Notes under the pieces: generated by a model
Databases searched by the model: none
Told to the model about the DNA's origin: nothing
The model's input: the letters and a program-made list of their open reading frames with translations, nothing else
In this document: one piece after another, positions 38,107-45,210 of the stretch
How positions within the stretch are numbered: the first letter of the stretch is position 1
Layout of the letters: every line of letters begins with the position of its first letter
Made by a program: the position numbers and the translations under genes
Origin: Robiginitomaculum sp.
GTDB taxonomy: Bacteria; Pseudomonadota; Alphaproteobacteria; Caulobacterales; Maricaulaceae
Direction: 5' to 3'
Assembly (NCBI GenBank): GCA_002733805.1
Contig: NVXG01000001.1
Location: 1 to 64,000, forward strand
DNA: 64,000 bases

Positions 38107-38218
38107 GGCAGTCCCGGCCTTTTTGAAAAAACGATCAAGTTAATGTTCATAGATACTGTGCGCCGCCTTGGCTGGCAAATGGTTTGCGCTTTGCGCGGAG
38201 TATGCGAAACACCATCCC

Positions 38219-39550
38219 ATGAACAGAATCAAATTTGGAACAGATGGCATTCGCGGTTTGGCCGGAACCGCACCGATTGATGCGGATACCGCCAGAAAAG
38301 TCGGATTTGCCGCCGGGCAAGTATTGGCCGACCACGGCACGGCATTCATGGCTCGCGATCCACGACAATCCGGCCCGATGCTGGAAACCGCCTTGGCCGA
38401 AGGGCTATGCGCGGCGGGCACCGAAGTCCAACTGGGCGGCATTATGCCAACCGCTGCCTTGGCGCTGGCCATACAGAGCCAACAAGCTGATCTGGGCGTG
38501 ATGATCACTGCCTCGCACAATCCGGCGCGCGACAATGGGATCAAATTGTTCGCTAGCGGCGGGAGCAAGATTTCTGACGCACAGCAAGCTCAAATGGAAA
38601 CCATCATCAATCAGAGCGCTGACCCACTCGCGGGCAAACCAGCCAAAGCGGCAACGATTACCGACAACAACCGACTGGCCGACCCGTATCTGGCGCTGGT
38701 CCACGGCCTGATTACCGGCTGGCCCCTACACGGGATCAAACTGGTGGTGGATTGCGCCAATGGGGCCGCATCTTGTTTTGCACCAATGTTACTGGCCGAA
38801 GCCGGGGCAGAGATTGTGTCCATTCACCACCAACCGGATGGAACCAACATTAACCTCAATTGCGGCTCGACCCACCCGCAAAGCCTGCAACAGCGGGTAC
38901 TGTCCGAACAAGCCCATGCGGGGATTGCGTTTGATGGCGATGCGGATCGGGTGTTGCTGGTCGATGAAACTGGCGGTTTGATTGACGGAGATCAGATTTT
39001 GGCCCGGTTGGCCACAGACTGGAAAGCCAAGAACAAACTGGCTGGGAAAAGTGTGGTGGCCACCGTGATGTCAAACGGCGGATTGGCTACTTATTTGAGC
39101 GGTCTTGATGTCCATCTGGAGCGAAGCGCGGTCGGGGATCGCCATGTGGCGGACCGGATGGCCGAAATAAAGGCCAATCTGGGCGGTGAGCAATCCGGCC
39201 ATATCTTGCTGCCCGAAATTCTGCCCTCGGGCGATGGTTTAATCGCAGGCCTGCTGCCTTTGCTTGGGCTGGCCGCTTCCGGGCAATTGGCTTCGCAATA
39301 CTTGCGTCCGTTTGAGCCTTTGCCACAACTTTTGCATAATGTGCGTCATACTGGTGGCAATCCGTTGATTGACCTTGCGGTTAAAACCGCCATCCGCAAG
39401 GTCGTGCAGCAATTGGGTAAAGAAGGCCGCGTGCTGGTCCGAGCGTCGGGGACCGAGCCGCTGATCCGCATCATGGCCGAAGCCAATACACTTGAAATGG
39501 CCCAATCGGCGATTGATCAGATCGCTGCCGCTATCGTTGACGCGGGATAG
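38219..39550 (+). CDS. glmM: Phosphoglucosamine mutase
   Basis: The 443-residue enzyme converts glucosamine 6-phosphate to the 1-phosphate for peptidoglycan and LPS. The start MNRIKFGTDGIRG fits GlmM. The phosphoserine loop TASHNPARDNGIKLF, the metal loop DGDADRVLLVDE, the sugar loop GGEQSGHIL and the phosphate loop RASGTEPLIRIMAE follow in order. An in-frame start 51 bp upstream is not family-like. Confidence 0.95.
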   Translation: MNRIKFGTDGIRGLAGTAPIDADTARKVGFAAGQVLADHGTAFMARDPRQSGPMLETALAEGLCAAGTEVQLGGIMPTAALALAIQSQQADLGVMITASHNPARDNGIKLFASGGSKISDAQQAQMETIINQSADPLAGKPAKAATITDNNRLADPYLALVHGLITGWPLHGIKLVVDCANGAASCFAPMLLAEAGAEIVSIHHQPDGTNINLNCGSTHPQSLQQRVLSEQAHAGIAFDGDADRVLLVDETGGLIDGDQILARLATDWKAKNKLAGKSVVATVMSNGGLATYLSGLDVHLERSAVGDRHVADRMAEIKANLGGEQSGHILLPEILPSGDGLIAGLLPLLGLAASGQLASQYLRPFEPLPQLLHNVRHTGGNPLIDLAVKTAIRKVVQQLGKEGRVLVRASGTEPLIRIMAEANTLEMAQSAIDQIAAAIVDAG

Positions 39551-39571
39551 CCCACGCCAGTTTCTTTTGAT

Positions 39572-39612
39572 GTTGCGATCCCCTCATCCCGACCTTCTCC
39601 CCACGGGAGAAG
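39572..39612. repeat. Dispersed GC-rich repeat, left part, split by the transposon
   Basis: It begins GTTGCGATCCCCTCATCCCG as at 35357 and reaches GGGAGAAG, where the transposon begins. The repeat resumes at 43476 with GGGAGAAGGGGCG and a GC-rich palindrome to about 43550. Confidence 0.55.
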
Positions 39613-39614
39613 GC

Positions 39615-39638
39615 GGACTTATGTAGCAGAAGCACCAA
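39615..39638 (+). repeat. Left terminal inverted repeat
   Basis: These 24 bases, starting GGACTTATGTAGC, are the exact reverse complement of 43452-43475. Confidence 0.95.
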
Positions 39639-39659
39639 GGGGATGGTGTGATGCTTAAA

Positions 39660-40574
39660 TTAATCGCCGTTGTGTTTTGGTTGATCACTGGAAGTCATGT
39701 TCAGCAGTCGCAACCGACCAACCTTACCCACAGCGTCATTTTTTTTAGCTCCAGCCCTCATAACACTCCTGATGGCTTCAAATTCGTTTTCTATTATAAT
39801 CGGATGTTGCCCACTTGGCAGATCGTAAGCCCCCTCCACAAAACGAACTTCATCTTGGAAGTCACTGAAACTAACTCTGAATCTGAACCACGCATCATTT
39901 GTGAAATTTTCGGGAAGGTCAAAGGACAGTATAACCGGATGGGAAAGGCTTTCTCCGGGATTCAAAATAGCGGATTCGTGGGTGTTTTCAATAAATTCAA
40001 TTTCGTCTTTCTTATCAGGGATATGAGTCCATCCGCCATCTACTCTCAGATCAAAACAAGGAGTCTTTCCTACGTTCTTGACAACAAGAGCGATGCCATA
40101 TGGCGAAGTCATGGCCATTTTTGGCTTGATCGAGACATAAGCCCTGAGTTCATTTTTAGCAATTTCTTGAGTGATCTTTACTGCCGCCCAAGCCGCATCG
40201 GTTGCTTTGCTCGCGGAGTTGGCAGCTTTTTGGGTTTCGACAAGGGTTCTGTAGATCAACAGCATACCACCAAGTCCGATAATGATCCCTATCCAAGCAG
40301 CATTCGCCATTTCCGCTTGCGCGATATGATCGGCGATCTCAAGTTCATACTTTTCTTGATCTTGTTGTACCCCTTGGTTGCTATCGGAGGAACCTCTCTC
40401 AGCATTGCACACAATCCCGATAGAAACATCCGAACCAAAGCAATGCACTTGGCCATCTCGGCATTCTGCGTGGTTATTTTGTTTGCTTTGGCTAGATAGC
40501 CCAACCCCAAAAAGCATTGCAACACAGATCGTGATGATTATCGGTATTGGGTAATTGTATTTTATCCAGTCCAT
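39660..40574 (-). CDS. Cargo gene: two-helix membrane protein, unknown
   Basis: The 304-residue product has a TM helix at about 7-27, a polar linker rich in Gln, Glu and Ser, a second helix at 93-109, a coiled-coil-like Ala-rich stretch (ETQKAANSASKATDAAWAAV) and a C-terminal beta-rich domain starting RAYVSIKP. The C-terminal part has a VVKNVGKTPCFDLRVDG segment that looks like an immunoglobulin-like fold. The gene ends 21 bp inside the left terminal repeat. I know no function; it may be an envelope protein that benefits the host or the element. Confidence 0.75.
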   Translation of the reverse strand: MDWIKYNYPIPIIITICVAMLFGVGLSSQSKQNNHAECRDGQVHCFGSDVSIGIVCNAERGSSDSNQGVQQDQEKYELEIADHIAQAEMANAAWIGIIIGLGGMLLIYRTLVETQKAANSASKATDAAWAAVKITQEIAKNELRAYVSIKPKMAMTSPYGIALVVKNVGKTPCFDLRVDGGWTHIPDKKDEIEFIENTHESAILNPGESLSHPVILSFDLPENFTNDAWFRFRVSFSDFQDEVRFVEGAYDLPSGQHPIIIENEFEAIRSVMRAGAKKNDAVGKVGRLRLLNMTSSDQPKHNGD

Positions 40575-40663
40575 ACATTGAGGTTATAGCCTCAAATCCC
40601 GCACACCAATAGCCTTATGCAAATCACATAAAATGGTATAATGTGCTCCAGATAGGAGTGATT

Positions 40664-40870
40664 ATGTCATCAAAAATTATATATAAAAATGCACACGGCA
40701 AGCAAATAGGATACACAAAATACGACGCGCAGAATCGTATCACTGCGTACAAGACAACTACCGCAACCAAAGTTGCCAGCTATGATCCTCACACCAATAC
40801 AACTAAAGATGCAAAGGGTACGAAGGTTGGAACTGGCAACTTAGTGACTAACTTTTTTGATCTGGAATAG
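40664..40870 (+). CDS. Cargo gene: small protein, unknown
   Basis: The 68-residue protein starts MSSKIIYKNAHGKQIGYTKY and contains YDAQNRITAY and YDPHTNTTKDAKGTKVGTGN, two short beta-hairpin repeats in the style of YD/RHS-like or WG-repeat segments. AGGAG lies five bases before the ATG. Its end overlaps the convergent next gene by 23 bp. I recognise no named family. Confidence 0.6.
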   Translation: MSSKIIYKNAHGKQIGYTKYDAQNRITAYKTTTATKVASYDPHTNTTKDAKGTKVGTGNLVTNFFDLE

Positions 40871-41015
40871 TCAGAAAGAGATTGCCAGCAAGGAACCCGC
40901 ACTTCCCATGTTCAAAATCGTCCTCGGTGACGTGTAAGCTTTTAACGTCGAAAATTTCAATACCTACGGATTTCAGGCGGTTTTCAAATTCTGTAAGCAA
41001 TTCAGCATGTGACAT
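40848..41015 (-). CDS. Cargo gene: small acidic protein, unknown
   Basis: A 55-residue product starting MSHAELLTEFENRLKSVGIE; the ATG at 41015 follows AGGA at good spacing, and a longer in-frame start lacks one. It has a helical N-terminus and a mixed C-terminus. It is downstream of the DUF6471 gene on the same strand with a 46-bp gap, so both may share one transcript. Confidence 0.55.
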   Translation of the reverse strand: MSHAELLTEFENRLKSVGIEIFDVKSLHVTEDDFEHGKCGFLAGNLFLTIPDQKS

Positions 41016-41061
41016 CTTTGTATTCCTAATGTTTGTGTGCATTGGGTATTTATGGGTCAAA

Positions 41062-41283
41062 TCACAGTCGTAAATCCCGCACACCAATAGCCTCTAAACA
41101 CTGAACCAGAAAAGCTGCGCTGAACTTACCCCGTGCCAGCTTGTTCCTGATATTCACCTCTTTTTCATGCACACCAATAGCTTCCAGCTTATCTACCAGT
41201 TGCGCGTAGGTGATCCCTGCACGTTTCAGTTCGGCCTTCAACATTCCAGCTACACGGGCCTCATAGGTTGTTTTTTCTGACAT
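41062..41283 (-). CDS. Cargo gene: DUF6471-like small protein
   Basis: The 73-residue protein reads KAELKRAGITYAQLVDKLEA, IGVHEKEVNIRNKL and RGKFSAAFLVQCLEAIGV, matching my memory of the DUF6471 domain and built like a helix-turn-helix. GGAG precedes the ATG at 41283. It is divergent from the transposase across a palindrome-rich 100-bp region. A role as a repressor of the transposase promoter is a reasonable inference but unproven. Confidence 0.75.
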   Translation of the reverse strand: MSEKTTYEARVAGMLKAELKRAGITYAQLVDKLEAIGVHEKEVNIRNKLARGKFSAAFLVQCLEAIGVRDLRL

Positions 41284-41298
41284 TTCGTACTCCATTCG

Positions 41299-41374
41299 TT
41301 ACCTATGTAACATAATCATTACAAATGCACTTTACAAGTGCATGTATATGTACTATATTTATTACATAAGTAAT
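41299..41374. promoter_or_regulatory. Divergent promoter with three palindromes
   Basis: Between the DUF6471 gene and the transposase lie TTAC-N4-GTAA at 41300-41311 and again at 41362-41373, 62 bp apart, and a central palindrome ATGCACTT-TAC-AAGTGCAT at 41325-41343. TTACAARTGCA also occurs as a direct repeat with a 13-bp step (41319, 41332). The layout is that of an operator cluster controlling both directions. Confidence 0.6.
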
Positions 41375-41383
41375 GGAGATAGT

Positions 41384-42349
41384 ATGATGTCACAACATTT
41401 TCTTTTAACAGCTAAGGCGAGAACCCTAAGCCTAAAGAAAATTTACAAGATGGGTGAAGCAGCCGCTTATGACCTGTTCAGGCAAATTAGATGGCCTGAA
41501 ACGGATGGCGAAGCCGTGTGTCCGCAATGTGGTTGCTATGAAAGCTACAACATCACCACACGCCGCAAGTTCAAATGCAAAGGCTGTCACCACCAATACA
41601 GTGTGACCAGTGGTACCATCCTACATAGCCGGAAACTGGACTTCACAGACCTACTGGCCGCTATCTGCGTCTTTGTGACAGGCTCCAAGGGCATGAGCGC
41701 GGTACAGTTCAGCCGGATGCTAGATGTTCAGTACAAGACCGCATGGGTGCTTGCCCATAAAATGCGTGAATGTCTGGCAGATGAAACCGATACGCATAAG
41801 TTGGATGGTGAAGTCGAAATTGATGGTGCGTACTTTGGTGGTCACATTCGCCCCGCGAACTTTAAGTCAGAACGAATTGACCGCCGTTTGCGCCATCACC
41901 AGACCGGCACACGGCGCGTTGTGATCGCATTGCGGGAACGTATGGGGCGCACACTACCTTTCGTTCGCAAGAGCGAAGCAGACGGAGTTGCCTTGGCGCA
42001 CGGCATTGTGCGGGATGGCACCACGATCTTTGCAGATGAAGCAACCCATTGGGACAAGCTGGCATGGGGTTATGATACGAAGCGGGTCAATCACTCCACA
42101 GAATACTCCCTTGGTGGCGGTGTGCATACGAATTGGGTTGAAAGCTACTTTTCCCGCCTTCGCAAAATGGTTTCAGGTCAGCACCATTGGGTAAGCCCAA
42201 AGTACCTACAACAGTATGCAGAACATGCTGCTTGGCTTGAGGATCATCGCCGGGAATGTACGGGCGGACTTGCAAAGAGGATTGTCAGGGCTGCGTTAAT
42301 TGCACCTAAAAGTCGTCAATTTGGCGGGTATTGGCAACGTGCAGCATAA
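41384..42349 (+). CDS. IS1595-family (ISXO2-like) transposase
   Basis: The 321-residue transposase has an N-terminal zinc ribbon (CPQCGCYESY, then KFKCKGCHHQYSVTSGT), a middle HTH region (GMSAVQFSRMLDVQYKTAW) and a DDE/DDN-type core beginning GEVEIDGAYFGG, continuing with FADEATHWDKL and ending near TNWVESYFSRLRK. No frameshift or stop interrupts it, so it may be active. GGAG lies five bases before the ATG at 41384. Confidence 0.93.
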   Translation: MMSQHFLLTAKARTLSLKKIYKMGEAAAYDLFRQIRWPETDGEAVCPQCGCYESYNITTRRKFKCKGCHHQYSVTSGTILHSRKLDFTDLLAAICVFVTGSKGMSAVQFSRMLDVQYKTAWVLAHKMRECLADETDTHKLDGEVEIDGAYFGGHIRPANFKSERIDRRLRHHQTGTRRVVIALRERMGRTLPFVRKSEADGVALAHGIVRDGTTIFADEATHWDKLAWGYDTKRVNHSTEYSLGGGVHTNWVESYFSRLRKMVSGQHHWVSPKYLQQYAEHAAWLEDHRRECTGGLAKRIVRAALIAPKSRQFGGYWQRAA

Positions 42350-42581
42350 TGGGGGTTCTAGTTTTATTCTGTCTTCGTTCCAACAAGAACACCGACTCGA
42401 CTCTATGAAGAGAATCACCATAAATAGAAACGTCAGGATGCTGATACATCCTGACGCTTTAGAAACTGCCGTGTGAGGCATAGATTGTGATCACGATTGA
42501 AATATCGCCAGATTCGGCGACACTGTCAACAGATTTTCACGATTCTACTGCCTTGCACGGCTCCATTATAGGAGCCATAAA

Positions 42582-42878
42582 ATGGCAACCGAACTACAAA
42601 TTACTTGTGTTACATCCGATGGTACGGATGACGATTCGCGAATTGATGGTGTTGGAGGCGGGTCTTCGCTTTTGGCCAGTTGGTATCATACCATTGACCA
42701 AGCCATTCTAAATATCGAGTGCGGAACACATCGCTATTACACATCGGTAAATGGAAATTCCGTATGGGTTATTGTTAAAGAGCATTGGTCGTCAGGCCGA
42801 AAGTATTTAACGACTGAACCAGATGGTATCACCGCTAACAACCTTTCGAAGCTAGGAGCATGTAGCGTAGCGGCCTAA
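42582..42878 (+). CDS. Cargo gene: DUF3892-like protein
   Basis: The 98-residue protein starts MATELQITCVTSDGTDDDSR, then IDGVGG, with YHTIDQAILNIECGTHRYYT, VNGNSVWVIV and KYLTTEPDGITANNLSKL, the full outline of DUF3892 proteins. AGGAG lies eight bases upstream of the ATG. It is downstream of the transposase on the same strand. The function is unknown. Confidence 0.75.
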   Translation: MATELQITCVTSDGTDDDSRIDGVGGGSSLLASWYHTIDQAILNIECGTHRYYTSVNGNSVWVIVKEHWSSGRKYLTTEPDGITANNLSKLGACSVAA

Positions 42879-42939
42879 CGGCTACGGGGCCGCAATGTCC
42901 AGTGGATGTTGCGGCGCTCGTCTAGCTTTTGGTTGATGA

Positions 42940-43407
42940 CTACCGACTCCTTGGCCGCAACTGCCATTCAACAACGTGCCTCTTGTTCAGAACACCAAGC
43001 AGATTGCCTTTTGCGCGTTGCTTGTAAAGCGAGCGCCCGATCCGATTGGTCAGATCAGTCACGGTTCGCTTATCCCGTATATCCTGACCCGATGCCGCAA
43101 GAATGTTTTGTGCTAATTCGCGGGACGTTAAGGGCCGCTCGGAGCATTTGAGTTCCGTAATGATGCCTTCCAGCAATTCACCCTTCACAAATTCAAGTTT
43201 CCGGTACTGTTTCGGCATGATGTCGTTCAGTTGCCCCGTGTAACCAACGATCCGCAATGCTACATCAAGCGATTTGATGTCGTTCCTCGCCATTGCGAGT
43301 TGTTCAGCAAGCCGTTCGGCCTCATGGAACAACTGAACCCGCTTCTTGAGCAGCCCGTTATGGGTTTCGCTATAGTCTTTGATCTCTGAATAGAACCGCT
43401 TTGCCAT
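42940..43407 (-). CDS. Cargo gene: HTH-like protein, unknown
   Basis: The 155-residue protein has a long helical, probably coiled-coil N-terminal half (residues 1-55, HNGLLKKRVQLFHEAERLAE) and a C-terminal winged-helix-like part (ECSERPLTSRELAQNIL-type, RTVTDLTNRIGRSLYKQRAKG). The start has no clear ribosome site. It reads toward the transposase gene from the right end. It could be an accessory DNA-binding protein of the element. Confidence 0.65.
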   Translation of the reverse strand: MAKRFYSEIKDYSETHNGLLKKRVQLFHEAERLAEQLAMARNDIKSLDVALRIVGYTGQLNDIMPKQYRKLEFVKGELLEGIITELKCSERPLTSRELAQNILAASGQDIRDKRTVTDLTNRIGRSLYKQRAKGNLLGVLNKRHVVEWQLRPRSR

Positions 43408-43451
43408 GGATTCACAATAGCAGGATTGTGGGTTATGGTCCGGTCATAATG

Positions 43452-43475
43452 TTGGTGCTTCTGCTACATAAGTCC
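43452..43475 (-). repeat. Right terminal inverted repeat
   Basis: An exact 24-base reverse complement of 39615-39638. It lies 45 bp beyond the start of the last cargo gene and abuts GGGAGAAG. Confidence 0.95.
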
Positions 43476-43557
43476 GGGAGAAGGGGCGCAGGTTCATCAA
43501 ACCACGAACAGGACTCCCTCTGCCGTTCGGGAGAGGGTTGGGGTGAGGGGCGCCAAA

Positions 43558-45075
43558 TTACAATTTCTGATCAAATGCGCCCACTTCGCTGTAACCCGCC
43601 AACAGGCTTTCTATATAGCGGAACATGGCCACCATATTGGCTTTGGACACCGGGCTTTCAACCACCACCACCAAATTGGGCGTATTGGACGAGGCGCGGA
43701 TCAGTCCCCACGTGCCGTCTTCCAAGGTAAAGCGCACGCCATTTACCGTCACCACCGACTTGATTTTTTGGTTCAAAATGGTTCCACCATTGGCATAGAC
43801 CGCTTCAACTTCAGCGATCAATTTGGCGGTTACCTCATACTTTACTTCATCAGCGCAAGCCGGAGACATGGACGGGGACAACCATGTTTGCGGCAATGCG
43901 TCTTTTAGGTCAGCCATCGACTTGTCAGGATTACGATCCAGCATAGCCAAAATCGCAATGGCGGTAACCAGCCCACAATCATAGCCGCGACCTATTGGCG
44001 GGCGAAAAAAGTAATGCCCGGATTTTTCAAACCCGGCCACCGCGCCCAACTCCGTCGTGCGGCGCTTGATATAGGAATGCCCGGTTTTCCAGTAATCAGT
44101 GGTGGCGCCATTATCGCGCAAGACTTTGTCCGTGCCATAAATCCCCGTCGATTTCACATCAGCCACAAACACGGCGTTTTCAAACTGCGTAGACAGATCG
44201 CGGGCCAACATGACCCCGACCTTGTCGGCGAAAATTTCTTCGCCGGTATTGTCGACCACCCCACAGCGATCGCCATCACCATCAAAGCCCAAAGCCAGAT
44301 CAGCCCCGCTGGCCCGAACCATGTCGGCCATTTTGCGCAACATTTTCATATTTTCAGGATTGGGATTATAATTTGGAAAATTGTAATCCAGCTCGCAATC
44401 CATCGGGATCACTTCGACCCCGATCCCTTGCAAAACCGCCTCGGCAAACGCACCGGCTGTGCCATTGCCGCAAGCCGCAACCACTTTCAGCGGACGTTTG
44501 ATTTGAATACTGCCCGCCAGATCTGCGATGAACCTGCCGCGCACCTCTGGCTCAAACACGTATCCCCCGCCGGAACGGGCTTTACCCTGCCCGGACAACA
44601 CAATTTCTTTTAAGCGGTCCATTTCTTCTGGGCCAAACGTCAAAGGCGGCTCAACACCCATTTTAACCCCAGTCCAGCCATTTTCGTTATGGCTGGCCGT
44701 CACCATGGCCACACAATCAATTCCCAAATCAAACTGGGCAAAATAGGCAGTTGGCGACAGAGCCAGACCAATATCGTGTACTTCGATCCCGGCGCTCATT
44801 AAACCCACAATCAGCGCCTGTTTGATCGAAGTCGAATACGAGCGGTAATCATGGCCCACCACGATTTTAGGATCACGGCCCAATTGATGGATCAACGTGC
44901 CCAGCCCCAGGCCCAACGCCTGAATGCCCAACAAATTGATCTCTGGGGCGCGATCCGAACCCGGATGCCCGAACCACCAGCGCGCATCATATTCGCGAAA
45001 CCCGGTTGGTTTGATCAGGGCTTGGGTTTCAAAATCCAGCGTATTGGCGCGCAAAGTGGATTTAGGCTCGAACAT
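43558..45075 (-). CDS. Phosphomannomutase/phosphoglucomutase
   Basis: The 505-residue alpha-D-phosphohexomutase has the GFREYDARWWFG entry, the phosphoserine loop TASHNENGWTGVKMG, the metal loop GFDGDGDRCG, the sugar loop GFEKSGHYFF and the phosphate loop RASSNTPNLVV. It makes mannose 1-phosphate and/or glucose 1-phosphate for glycans. The ATG at 45075 follows GGAG; a longer start is unlikely. The transposon lies 82 bp downstream of its stop. Confidence 0.92.
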   Translation of the reverse strand: MFEPKSTLRANTLDFETQALIKPTGFREYDARWWFGHPGSDRAPEINLLGIQALGLGLGTLIHQLGRDPKIVVGHDYRSYSTSIKQALIVGLMSAGIEVHDIGLALSPTAYFAQFDLGIDCVAMVTASHNENGWTGVKMGVEPPLTFGPEEMDRLKEIVLSGQGKARSGGGYVFEPEVRGRFIADLAGSIQIKRPLKVVAACGNGTAGAFAEAVLQGIGVEVIPMDCELDYNFPNYNPNPENMKMLRKMADMVRASGADLALGFDGDGDRCGVVDNTGEEIFADKVGVMLARDLSTQFENAVFVADVKSTGIYGTDKVLRDNGATTDYWKTGHSYIKRRTTELGAVAGFEKSGHYFFRPPIGRGYDCGLVTAIAILAMLDRNPDKSMADLKDALPQTWLSPSMSPACADEVKYEVTAKLIAEVEAVYANGGTILNQKIKSVVTVNGVRFTLEDGTWGLIRASSNTPNLVVVVESPVSKANMVAMFRYIESLLAGYSEVGAFDQKL

Positions 45076-45210
45076 GGCTCGGTTTCTCCTGATAAACACC
45101 TGAAACCGGTATTGCCGATTGACAGGGCCGGATGCAAGTCCGATTTTGCGCAAAATTATTGTTTCTCAGCTTTGCATTAGCCGATCAGGCGACTTTTCAG
45201 GAAGAAGAAT

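Follow-up and report, generated by a model that had tools for sequence, protein, structure and literature searches.

Is a transposon that carries six open reading frames (ORFs) besides its transposase gene a simple insertion sequence loaded with passengers, or an element with a backbone of its own? This question is raised by a locus in a 64,000-nt stretch of Robiginitomaculum sp. DNA (contig NVXG01000001.1, positions 1-64,000, forward strand), the whole of which we call the window. A preliminary description had reported an intact IS1595-family transposon there with additional genes and had taken all six as passengers. The number of extra ORFs is indeed six; two of them, encoding a DUF6471 protein and a protein that we named F1, belong with the transposase to a backbone shared with related elements. 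Our reading, to which we give a probability of roughly 0.78, is that of an IS1595-family cargo transposon with a three-gene backbone, a DUF6471 repressor and exchangeable cargo.

The element is 3,863 bp long (window 39614-43476) and is bounded by 25-bp terminal inverted repeats that are complementary at 25 of 25 positions, with the 8-bp target duplication GGAGAAGG adjoining both ends (Table 1). The ends had been described as perfect, which they are, and as 24 bp long, which is one base short. The duplication proposed at the same time is real, and the GGGAGAAG given for it is the same repeat shifted one base to the left; we rejected this register and the boundary that goes with it, because the two ends would then be unequal. 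The transposase frame is open, as described, and matches IS1595 domains; the description of an intact IS1595-type transposon with extra genes holds. A full 8/8 duplication accompanies ends of this kind in 30 of 34 complete elements (see below); although the choice of end pairs favoured matching flanks, this count excludes chance as the origin of the ends and the duplication. The window element is a real, complete transposon, and its insertion is probably recent.

We searched 17 other genomes of the same genus for the empty site that the preliminary description had proposed to look for in sister strains, and found it in one (G012). There the joined flanks match without a break (C275:2982-3330, 83%, query 2-348 of 348), and the two genes that flank the element in the window (81% and 87% DNA identity) lie, by their matches, 149 bases apart. 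The G012 site has a single GGAGAAGG, a whole host repeat and no element end, the best stretch still having at least 10 mismatches to the 25-bp end. The insertion in the window interrupts this host repeat (39560-39613 and 43485-43560), a dispersed sequence with 18 matches in its own genome (two are the site itself and 16 lie elsewhere), 40 in G005 and others across the genus. One own-genome copy (C109:75893-76015) also runs across the joint uninterrupted, at 83%; together with G012, it bears out the claim that removing the element restores the repeat. In another genome (G016) the gap between these two genes is occupied, and an empty site was not found in the remaining 15 of the 17. The related element in G016 (L039; transposase 92%) has the same orientation and the same neighbouring gene on either side, and its target is TTCCTTCC, different from GGAGAAGG, within a simple CTTCC-type tract. 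The different duplications indicate two separate insertions in one intergenic gap, and this gap may be a preferred target. The gene pair around both elements (L039, 3559-10175; window, 38168-45153) is phosphohexomutase-type, as read from the window ORFs.

The transposase matches DDE_Tnp_IS1595 (E = 9.7e-39), Zn_ribbon_IS1595 (PF12760; E = 1.1e-14) and NF033547 (E = 9.1e-46), and its zinc-ribbon cysteines C46, C49, C65 and C68 are near-invariant in 34 transposase rows. According to the covered part of PMC8101967, the IS1595 family comprises the ISPna2, ISH4, IS1016, IS1595, ISSod11, ISNwi and ISNha5 groups, has a zinc ribbon except in the IS1016 group, and usually shows 8-bp duplications and a single transposase gene. 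The window element has the catalytic domain, the N-terminal zinc ribbon, the inverted ends, the 8-bp duplication and one transposase gene. It departs from the family as described there in its two extra backbone genes and its exchangeable cargo, which mark it as an IS1595 variant and do not exclude it from the family. IS1595 members carrying additional genes are cited in the covered parts of PMC5704250 and PMC3004938, in agreement with the earlier remark that some relatives carry passengers. In tISCpe8, in MTnSag1 and in the window, a larger element has an IS1595-type transposase for its mobility; the first two differ in being mobilisable, and DUF6471, F1 and the operator described below are unmentioned in the text covered (PMC5704250). 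A Pfam search with the seven window proteins matched no relaxase. To judge from the title of its paper, tISCpe8 is reportedly a lincomycin resistance element.

We then investigated relatives of the transposase in genome contigs (44 loci) and in 61 near-relative genomes, 28 of which have some IS1595-type match. The end-pair test covered 45 loci, namely 42 of the 44 contig loci (L081 and L082 were left out), two from near relatives and the window. A pair of ends surrounds the transposase in 34 of them, the window element included, and was not found at the other 11. These complete elements are 2,589-5,695 bp long, and their transposases go down to about 43% identity with that of the window. The hosts include Robiginitomaculum, Hellea, Henriciella, Rhodovulum, Rhizobium, an Arenimonas bin, Sulfurovum and Campylobacter, and complete elements exist in Algimonas arctica KCTC 32513 (L045), Rhodovulum marinum DSM 18063 (L057) and Afifella pfennigii DSM 17143 (L067). 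Among 385 sampled genomes of the class, 16 (own genome included) have a transposase match at 1e-60. Other loci with such ends around related genes, which the preliminary description had suggested seeking, were thus found, a second own-genome copy among them; in none of the other elements did we find the exact set of six.

A DUF6471 gene is found in 33 of the 34 complete elements, divergent from the transposase gene in all 33, and F1 is found in 34 of 34, counting a copy broken into two frames (L074) and one seen in an ORF overlapping the transposase frame (L057); the models used for both counts were built from members of the same element set. The usual place of F1 is past the transposase, toward that end, pointing inward. 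Of the 16 F1 loci in 99 genomes, 13 are within or next to elements of this kind. The 21 DUF6471 matches in the 99 genomes comprise 12 beside a transposase, one in a deleted element, five beside a gene like the window cargo gene P0001, and three with none of these near. A DUF6471 scan of viral contigs gave 30 loci: a transposase adjoins in 17 (as fragments in L146 and L151), eight others have at least one end, three have a P0001-like gene but no end, and two have neither. Two compact relatives with ends and full duplications, L083 (1,543 bp, transposase and F1 only) and L084 (1,132 bp, transposase only), indicate that DUF6471 and F1 are not strictly required for movement. The larger elements nevertheless keep both genes. 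L107 retains the ends, F1 and a P0001-like gene, with only remnants of the transposase and DUF6471.

The DUF6471 protein is modelled as a four-helix domain (predicted local distance difference test score, pLDDT, 89.9). Its sequence has no match among PDB sequences at E up to 1. A structural comparison made in addition to Foldseek placed C.Esp1396I first (Z 9.3, root-mean-square deviation 1.4, 64 aligned). DUF6471 resembles the restriction-modification controllers C.Esp1396I, C.BclI and C.AhdI in its predicted fold and in having a palindrome at the promoter of the neighbouring gene. It differs from them in sequence (about 14% identity) and in its neighbour, a transposase gene in 33 of the 34 elements.

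We collected 64 DUF6471-transposase intergenic regions and kept 58, dropping six under 60 bases; 30 of the 58 come from the 34 complete elements. A perfect palindrome with two 5-base arms and a 4-base spacer (5-N4-5) occurs in 24 of the 58, against 5.6% of shuffles. After a sequence-only alignment, 232 of 290 arm positions form Watson-Crick pairs, whereas 2000 permutations with reshuffled right arms gave a mean of 155.9 (standard deviation 8.1, maximum 184). The 47 distinct rows gave 180 of 235 against 123.2 (standard deviation 7.2, maximum 146), both counts being uncorrected for shared ancestry. When the last 70 bases of each region were scanned for promoter-like sequences, the top match stopped 1 nt short of the palindrome in 36 of 58 regions, a raw count without shuffle control, and the window has this order of promoter and palindrome. 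The arms also track the protein, again without correction for ancestry: when V occupies the position before N44 (predicted third helix), base 4 of the half-site is A in 13 rows and G in 2, and with any other residue it is A in 4 and G in 26 (Fisher test, 2.7e-6). This comparison used the 45 of 57 rows with both arms alike; the 12 rows with unlike arms were set aside, and L131 lacked the motif. The link is also seen within a close KE[VA]N group (12/2 against 1/4, p 0.017). The second own-genome copy, which was outside the test set, has KEAN with GTTGC-ataac-GCAAC and fits the link, with a 5-base spacer. A covarying palindrome just after the -10 box of the transposase makes a self-encoded repressor the best reading, and DUF6471 is most likely a dimeric XRE-type repressor of the transposase. 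The fold and the operator come from computation, whereas that DUF6471 binds there and represses is our inference.

In the model of F1 (pLDDT 90.0; predicted template modelling score 0.57), a long helix (residues 13-53) precedes a winged-helix part whose alignment covers about residues 70-155; the model resembles Fur-type, LmrR and Z-alpha domains (Z 9 to 10). Pfam gave only scattered weak matches on 30 members, for instance one member with HARE-HTH and one with PadR. The F1 genes of the two own-genome copies share 90% DNA identity with a ratio of nonsynonymous to synonymous substitution rates (dN/dS) of 0.033, indicating purifying selection. The models hint that F1 is most likely a dimeric DNA-binding accessory or regulatory protein, which may act at the end of the element.

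The mechanism that we propose is as follows. The DDE transposase would recognise the 25-bp ends and make the 8-bp duplication, as the anatomy and the empty site suggest. The DUF6471 protein, transcribed divergently, would bind the palindrome over the transposase transcription start, probably also sites before its own gene, and would thereby keep transposition low and reset expression after entry into a new cell. F1, usually encoded near one end, would dimerise through its long N-terminal helix and bind DNA by its winged helix. The other genes, membrane proteins like P0001 among them, lie between the backbone and the ends, in slots whose content changes from element to element, and cargo of the restriction-modification, abortive-infection or toxin-antitoxin type, which several relatives have, could help the host to keep the element.

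We then investigated the cargo. In the window element the cargo is P0001, the DUF3892 protein and the doubtful ORFs P0002 and P0003. P0001-like proteins are encoded by 13 of the 34 complete elements and by the second own-genome copy, which makes 14 elements. The DUF3892 protein has no tblastn relative in other elements, and its Pfam family is shared with cargo of L039 and L042. Both are recurrent, exchangeable cargo. For P0002 and P0003, tblastn found no relative in any other element tested; we therefore rejected them as established cargo, and they may not be genes. PADLOC gave no match for the six window proteins other than the transposase, and PHROGs gave two families of unknown function. 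The cargo set comprised 98 non-core ORFs of at least 70 amino acids (aa) from the 34 elements and four from the second own-genome copy, 102 in all, two window ORFs being shortened to their ATG. Seven of ten proteins received a name from PADLOC: HEC-09 (L047), BstA-like (L063, L064), type IIG (L068), a type II methyltransferase (L069) and a methyltransferase with a restriction enzyme (L074). Pfam named MazE and PemK (L049), ParE (L061), NYN (L053), an M78 peptidase (L057) and a Clp protease (L058). The Panacea-type proteins of L048 and L062, as well as L069:3926-4741, had no PADLOC match, and the label for L048 and L062 comes from a Pfam count and a reading of the sequence (SocA/Panacea). SNase, WYL, DUF7931, Cas2, DUF3800, a second HEC-09 and KilA-N were seen as counts and assigned to elements by reading, and L059:7442-7729 had no Pfam match. 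The BstA-like, HEC-09, MazEF, ParE, SocA/Panacea and type II/IIG restriction-modification proteins are cargo of relatives and not of the window element. Closely similar 97-aa cargo proteins are encoded in Rhizobium oryzicola (L058, 7128-7421) and the Arenimonas bin (L059, 7131-7424), where the other neighbouring cargo differs.

Defence or toxin-antitoxin-type cargo is found in only about 11 of the 34 elements, the Panacea-type L048 and L062 included, and the three that carry restriction-modification genes come from Campylobacterota and are distantly related. Such genes might therefore be a by-product of gene pickup from defence-rich islands, with no selected role for the element, and we consider this a serious possibility with a somewhat less than even chance. 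Against it, the 102 cargo ORFs gave PADLOC matches to 150 families, many of them overlapping methyltransferase models, whereas a control set of 98 length-matched ORFs, taken beside the elements at the same loci, had no match at that threshold. These controls were chosen by length from 290 candidates at 32 of the 34 loci (L012 and L013 were left out), and they resemble ordinary genes, with 57 Pfam families against 21 in the cargo.

The relation between DUF6471 and P0001 raises another alternative. Just before P0001, 22 bp from the 3' end of DUF6471 recur exactly. At other loci the P0001-like match directly follows the DUF6471 gene or overlaps it, so that the 456 bp separating the two copies, in which P0002 and P0003 lie, seem to have been inserted later, and the repeat is probably a scar of a cargo insertion. 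The DUF6471 and P0001-like genes are arranged head to tail, their matches overlapping, at four loci that lack a transposase match (L193, L194, L197 and L149), and HipB antitoxins are among the Foldseek matches of DUF6471. DUF6471 could accordingly be the antitoxin-like partner of a P0001-like membrane protein, in a toxin-antitoxin or abortive-infection pair carried by the transposon, and not chiefly a transposase repressor. We regard this as unlikely, since the P0001-like gene is in only 13 complete elements and DUF6471 in 33, and since the covarying palindrome lies on the transposase side. Of the 26 P0001-like matches in the 99 genomes, 12 have a DUF6471 match no more than about 1.4 kb away, and six of the other 14 that were inspected have neither DUF6471 nor an element end. 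At L193, which has a DUF6471 fragment, and at L194, one transposon end follows the overlapping pair; these may be half-elements or a separate two-gene unit.

The palindrome lies near the transcript start, beside the ribosome site, and has a four-base loop, as would an RNA hairpin that limits translation of the transposase. The 55 non-Watson-Crick cells of the 47 distinct rows include 16 A-C and 15 G-T, of which only G-T pairs in RNA; this near equality favours a site read as DNA, and the half-sites track a residue of the predicted recognition helix of DUF6471. We therefore rejected the hairpin, which is very improbable in our view. A plain IS1595 element with six unrelated passengers and no regulatory backbone, for which the elements with extra genes on record and the compact L083 and L084 could be cited, is contradicted by the conservation of DUF6471 and F1 across transposases as far apart as 43% identity and by the selection on F1, and has hardly any probability left.

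Several observations weigh against the repressor-backbone reading that we prefer. L084 has ends and a duplication with the transposase alone, and DUF6471 occurs away from transposases. F1 is placed otherwise than usual in three of the 34 elements (L042, L044 and L057). The best Foldseek matches are weak both for DUF6471 (HipB and controller proteins, E 0.13) and for F1 (E 0.017), and both the XRE and the winged-helix fold are widespread. Spacers of 5, 6 and 7 bases likewise give palindromes (in 12, 18 and 11 of the 58 regions) more often than in shuffles, so that the exact operator register is not fixed. L039, L040, L042, L065, L121 and L146 are clear cases contrary to the residue-to-base link, and shared ancestry may enter into both this link and the pairing test. 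Most of the cargo is without known function.

IS1595 elements with passengers are already known; we found no description of this backbone and its operator in the literature covered, in part as partial texts and without the founding IS1595 paper (Siguier 2009), so that priority is not settled, and a literature search for DUF6471 found no paper. If our reading is correct, two uncharacterised families, DUF6471 and F1, gain a testable role in transposition, dozens of natural repressor-operator pairs become available whose specificities seem to have drifted together, and the cargo slots are a place to seek undescribed phage-defence and toxin-antitoxin genes. The complete elements in named strains make these claims testable. 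A bolder version would see the lineage as compact carriers specialised for anti-phage and addiction cassettes, DUF6471 as a controller-like timer of the transposase with a coevolved operator, DUF6471 together with the P0001-like membrane protein as a two-gene cassette of the defence or toxin-antitoxin type that is itself undescribed, and F1 as an undescribed family of transposition accessories; we hold it only tentatively and find it rather doubtful.

Table 1. Features of the transposon and its target site, in window coordinates.
Feature	Position	Strand	Basis
Left 8-bp target duplication, GGAGAAGG	39606..39613	.	single copy in empty site
Left terminal inverted repeat, 25 bp, perfect	39614..39638	+	complementarity
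Cargo P0001, 304 aa, two predicted hydrophobic segments	39660..40574	-	P0001-like family in 14 elements
22-bp exact copy of 3' part of DUF6471 gene, just upstream of P0001	40594..40615	-	other copy at 41072-41093
ORF P0002, 68 aa, doubtful gene	40664..40870	+	without relative in other elements
ORF P0003, 55 aa, doubtful gene	40848..41015	-	without relative in other elements
Backbone DUF6471 protein, 73 aa, proposed repressor with a predicted XRE-type helix-turn-helix	41062..41283	-	
Palindrome GTTAC-ctat-GTAAC upstream of DUF6471, possible second operator	41298..41311	.	
Promoter-like TTTACA-17-TATATT for transposase	41331..41359	+	consensus match; one expected by chance here
Palindrome ATTAC-ataa-GTAAT, proposed operator over transcription start	41361..41374	.	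covariation, 58 upstream regions
Backbone IS1595-type DDE transposase, 321 aa	41384..42349	+	domain matches
Cargo DUF3892 protein, 98 aa	42582..42878	+	DUF3892 cargo also in L039, L042
Backbone F1 protein P0007, 155 aa, long helix and winged helix (predicted), without Pfam family	42940..43407	-	
Right terminal inverted repeat, 25 bp, perfect	43452..43476	-	complementarity
Right 8-bp target duplication, GGAGAAGG	43477..43484	.	matches left copy

The second own-genome element is split over two contigs (C40 and C45), both of which break off inside the transposase sequence. An element end is present on each contig, in both cases next to GTCATACC. Its cargo, a P0001-like protein, a 206-aa ORF, a 79-aa ORF and a 293-aa protein, is unlike that of the window element; we read the 293-aa protein as DUF3800, there being one DUF3800 match in the cargo set. 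The outer parts of its transposase (L104, 1-2187; L105, 1-2241) are about 89% identical to those of the window, and the middle is missing. Perhaps the missing middle is near-identical to that of the window transposase, which gene conversion would explain.

Elements without a transposase match are found in viral contigs. At L147 (4639-7225, the same in L148), well-matching ends and the duplication CAAAATTG enclose F1, DUF6471 and a P0001-like gene; we read this as a non-autonomous form. A smaller element of about 1 kb (L163 and L164, 5427-6433), with neither a transposase nor an F1 match, has diverged ends, a DUF6471 relative and the duplication CAAAAATA.

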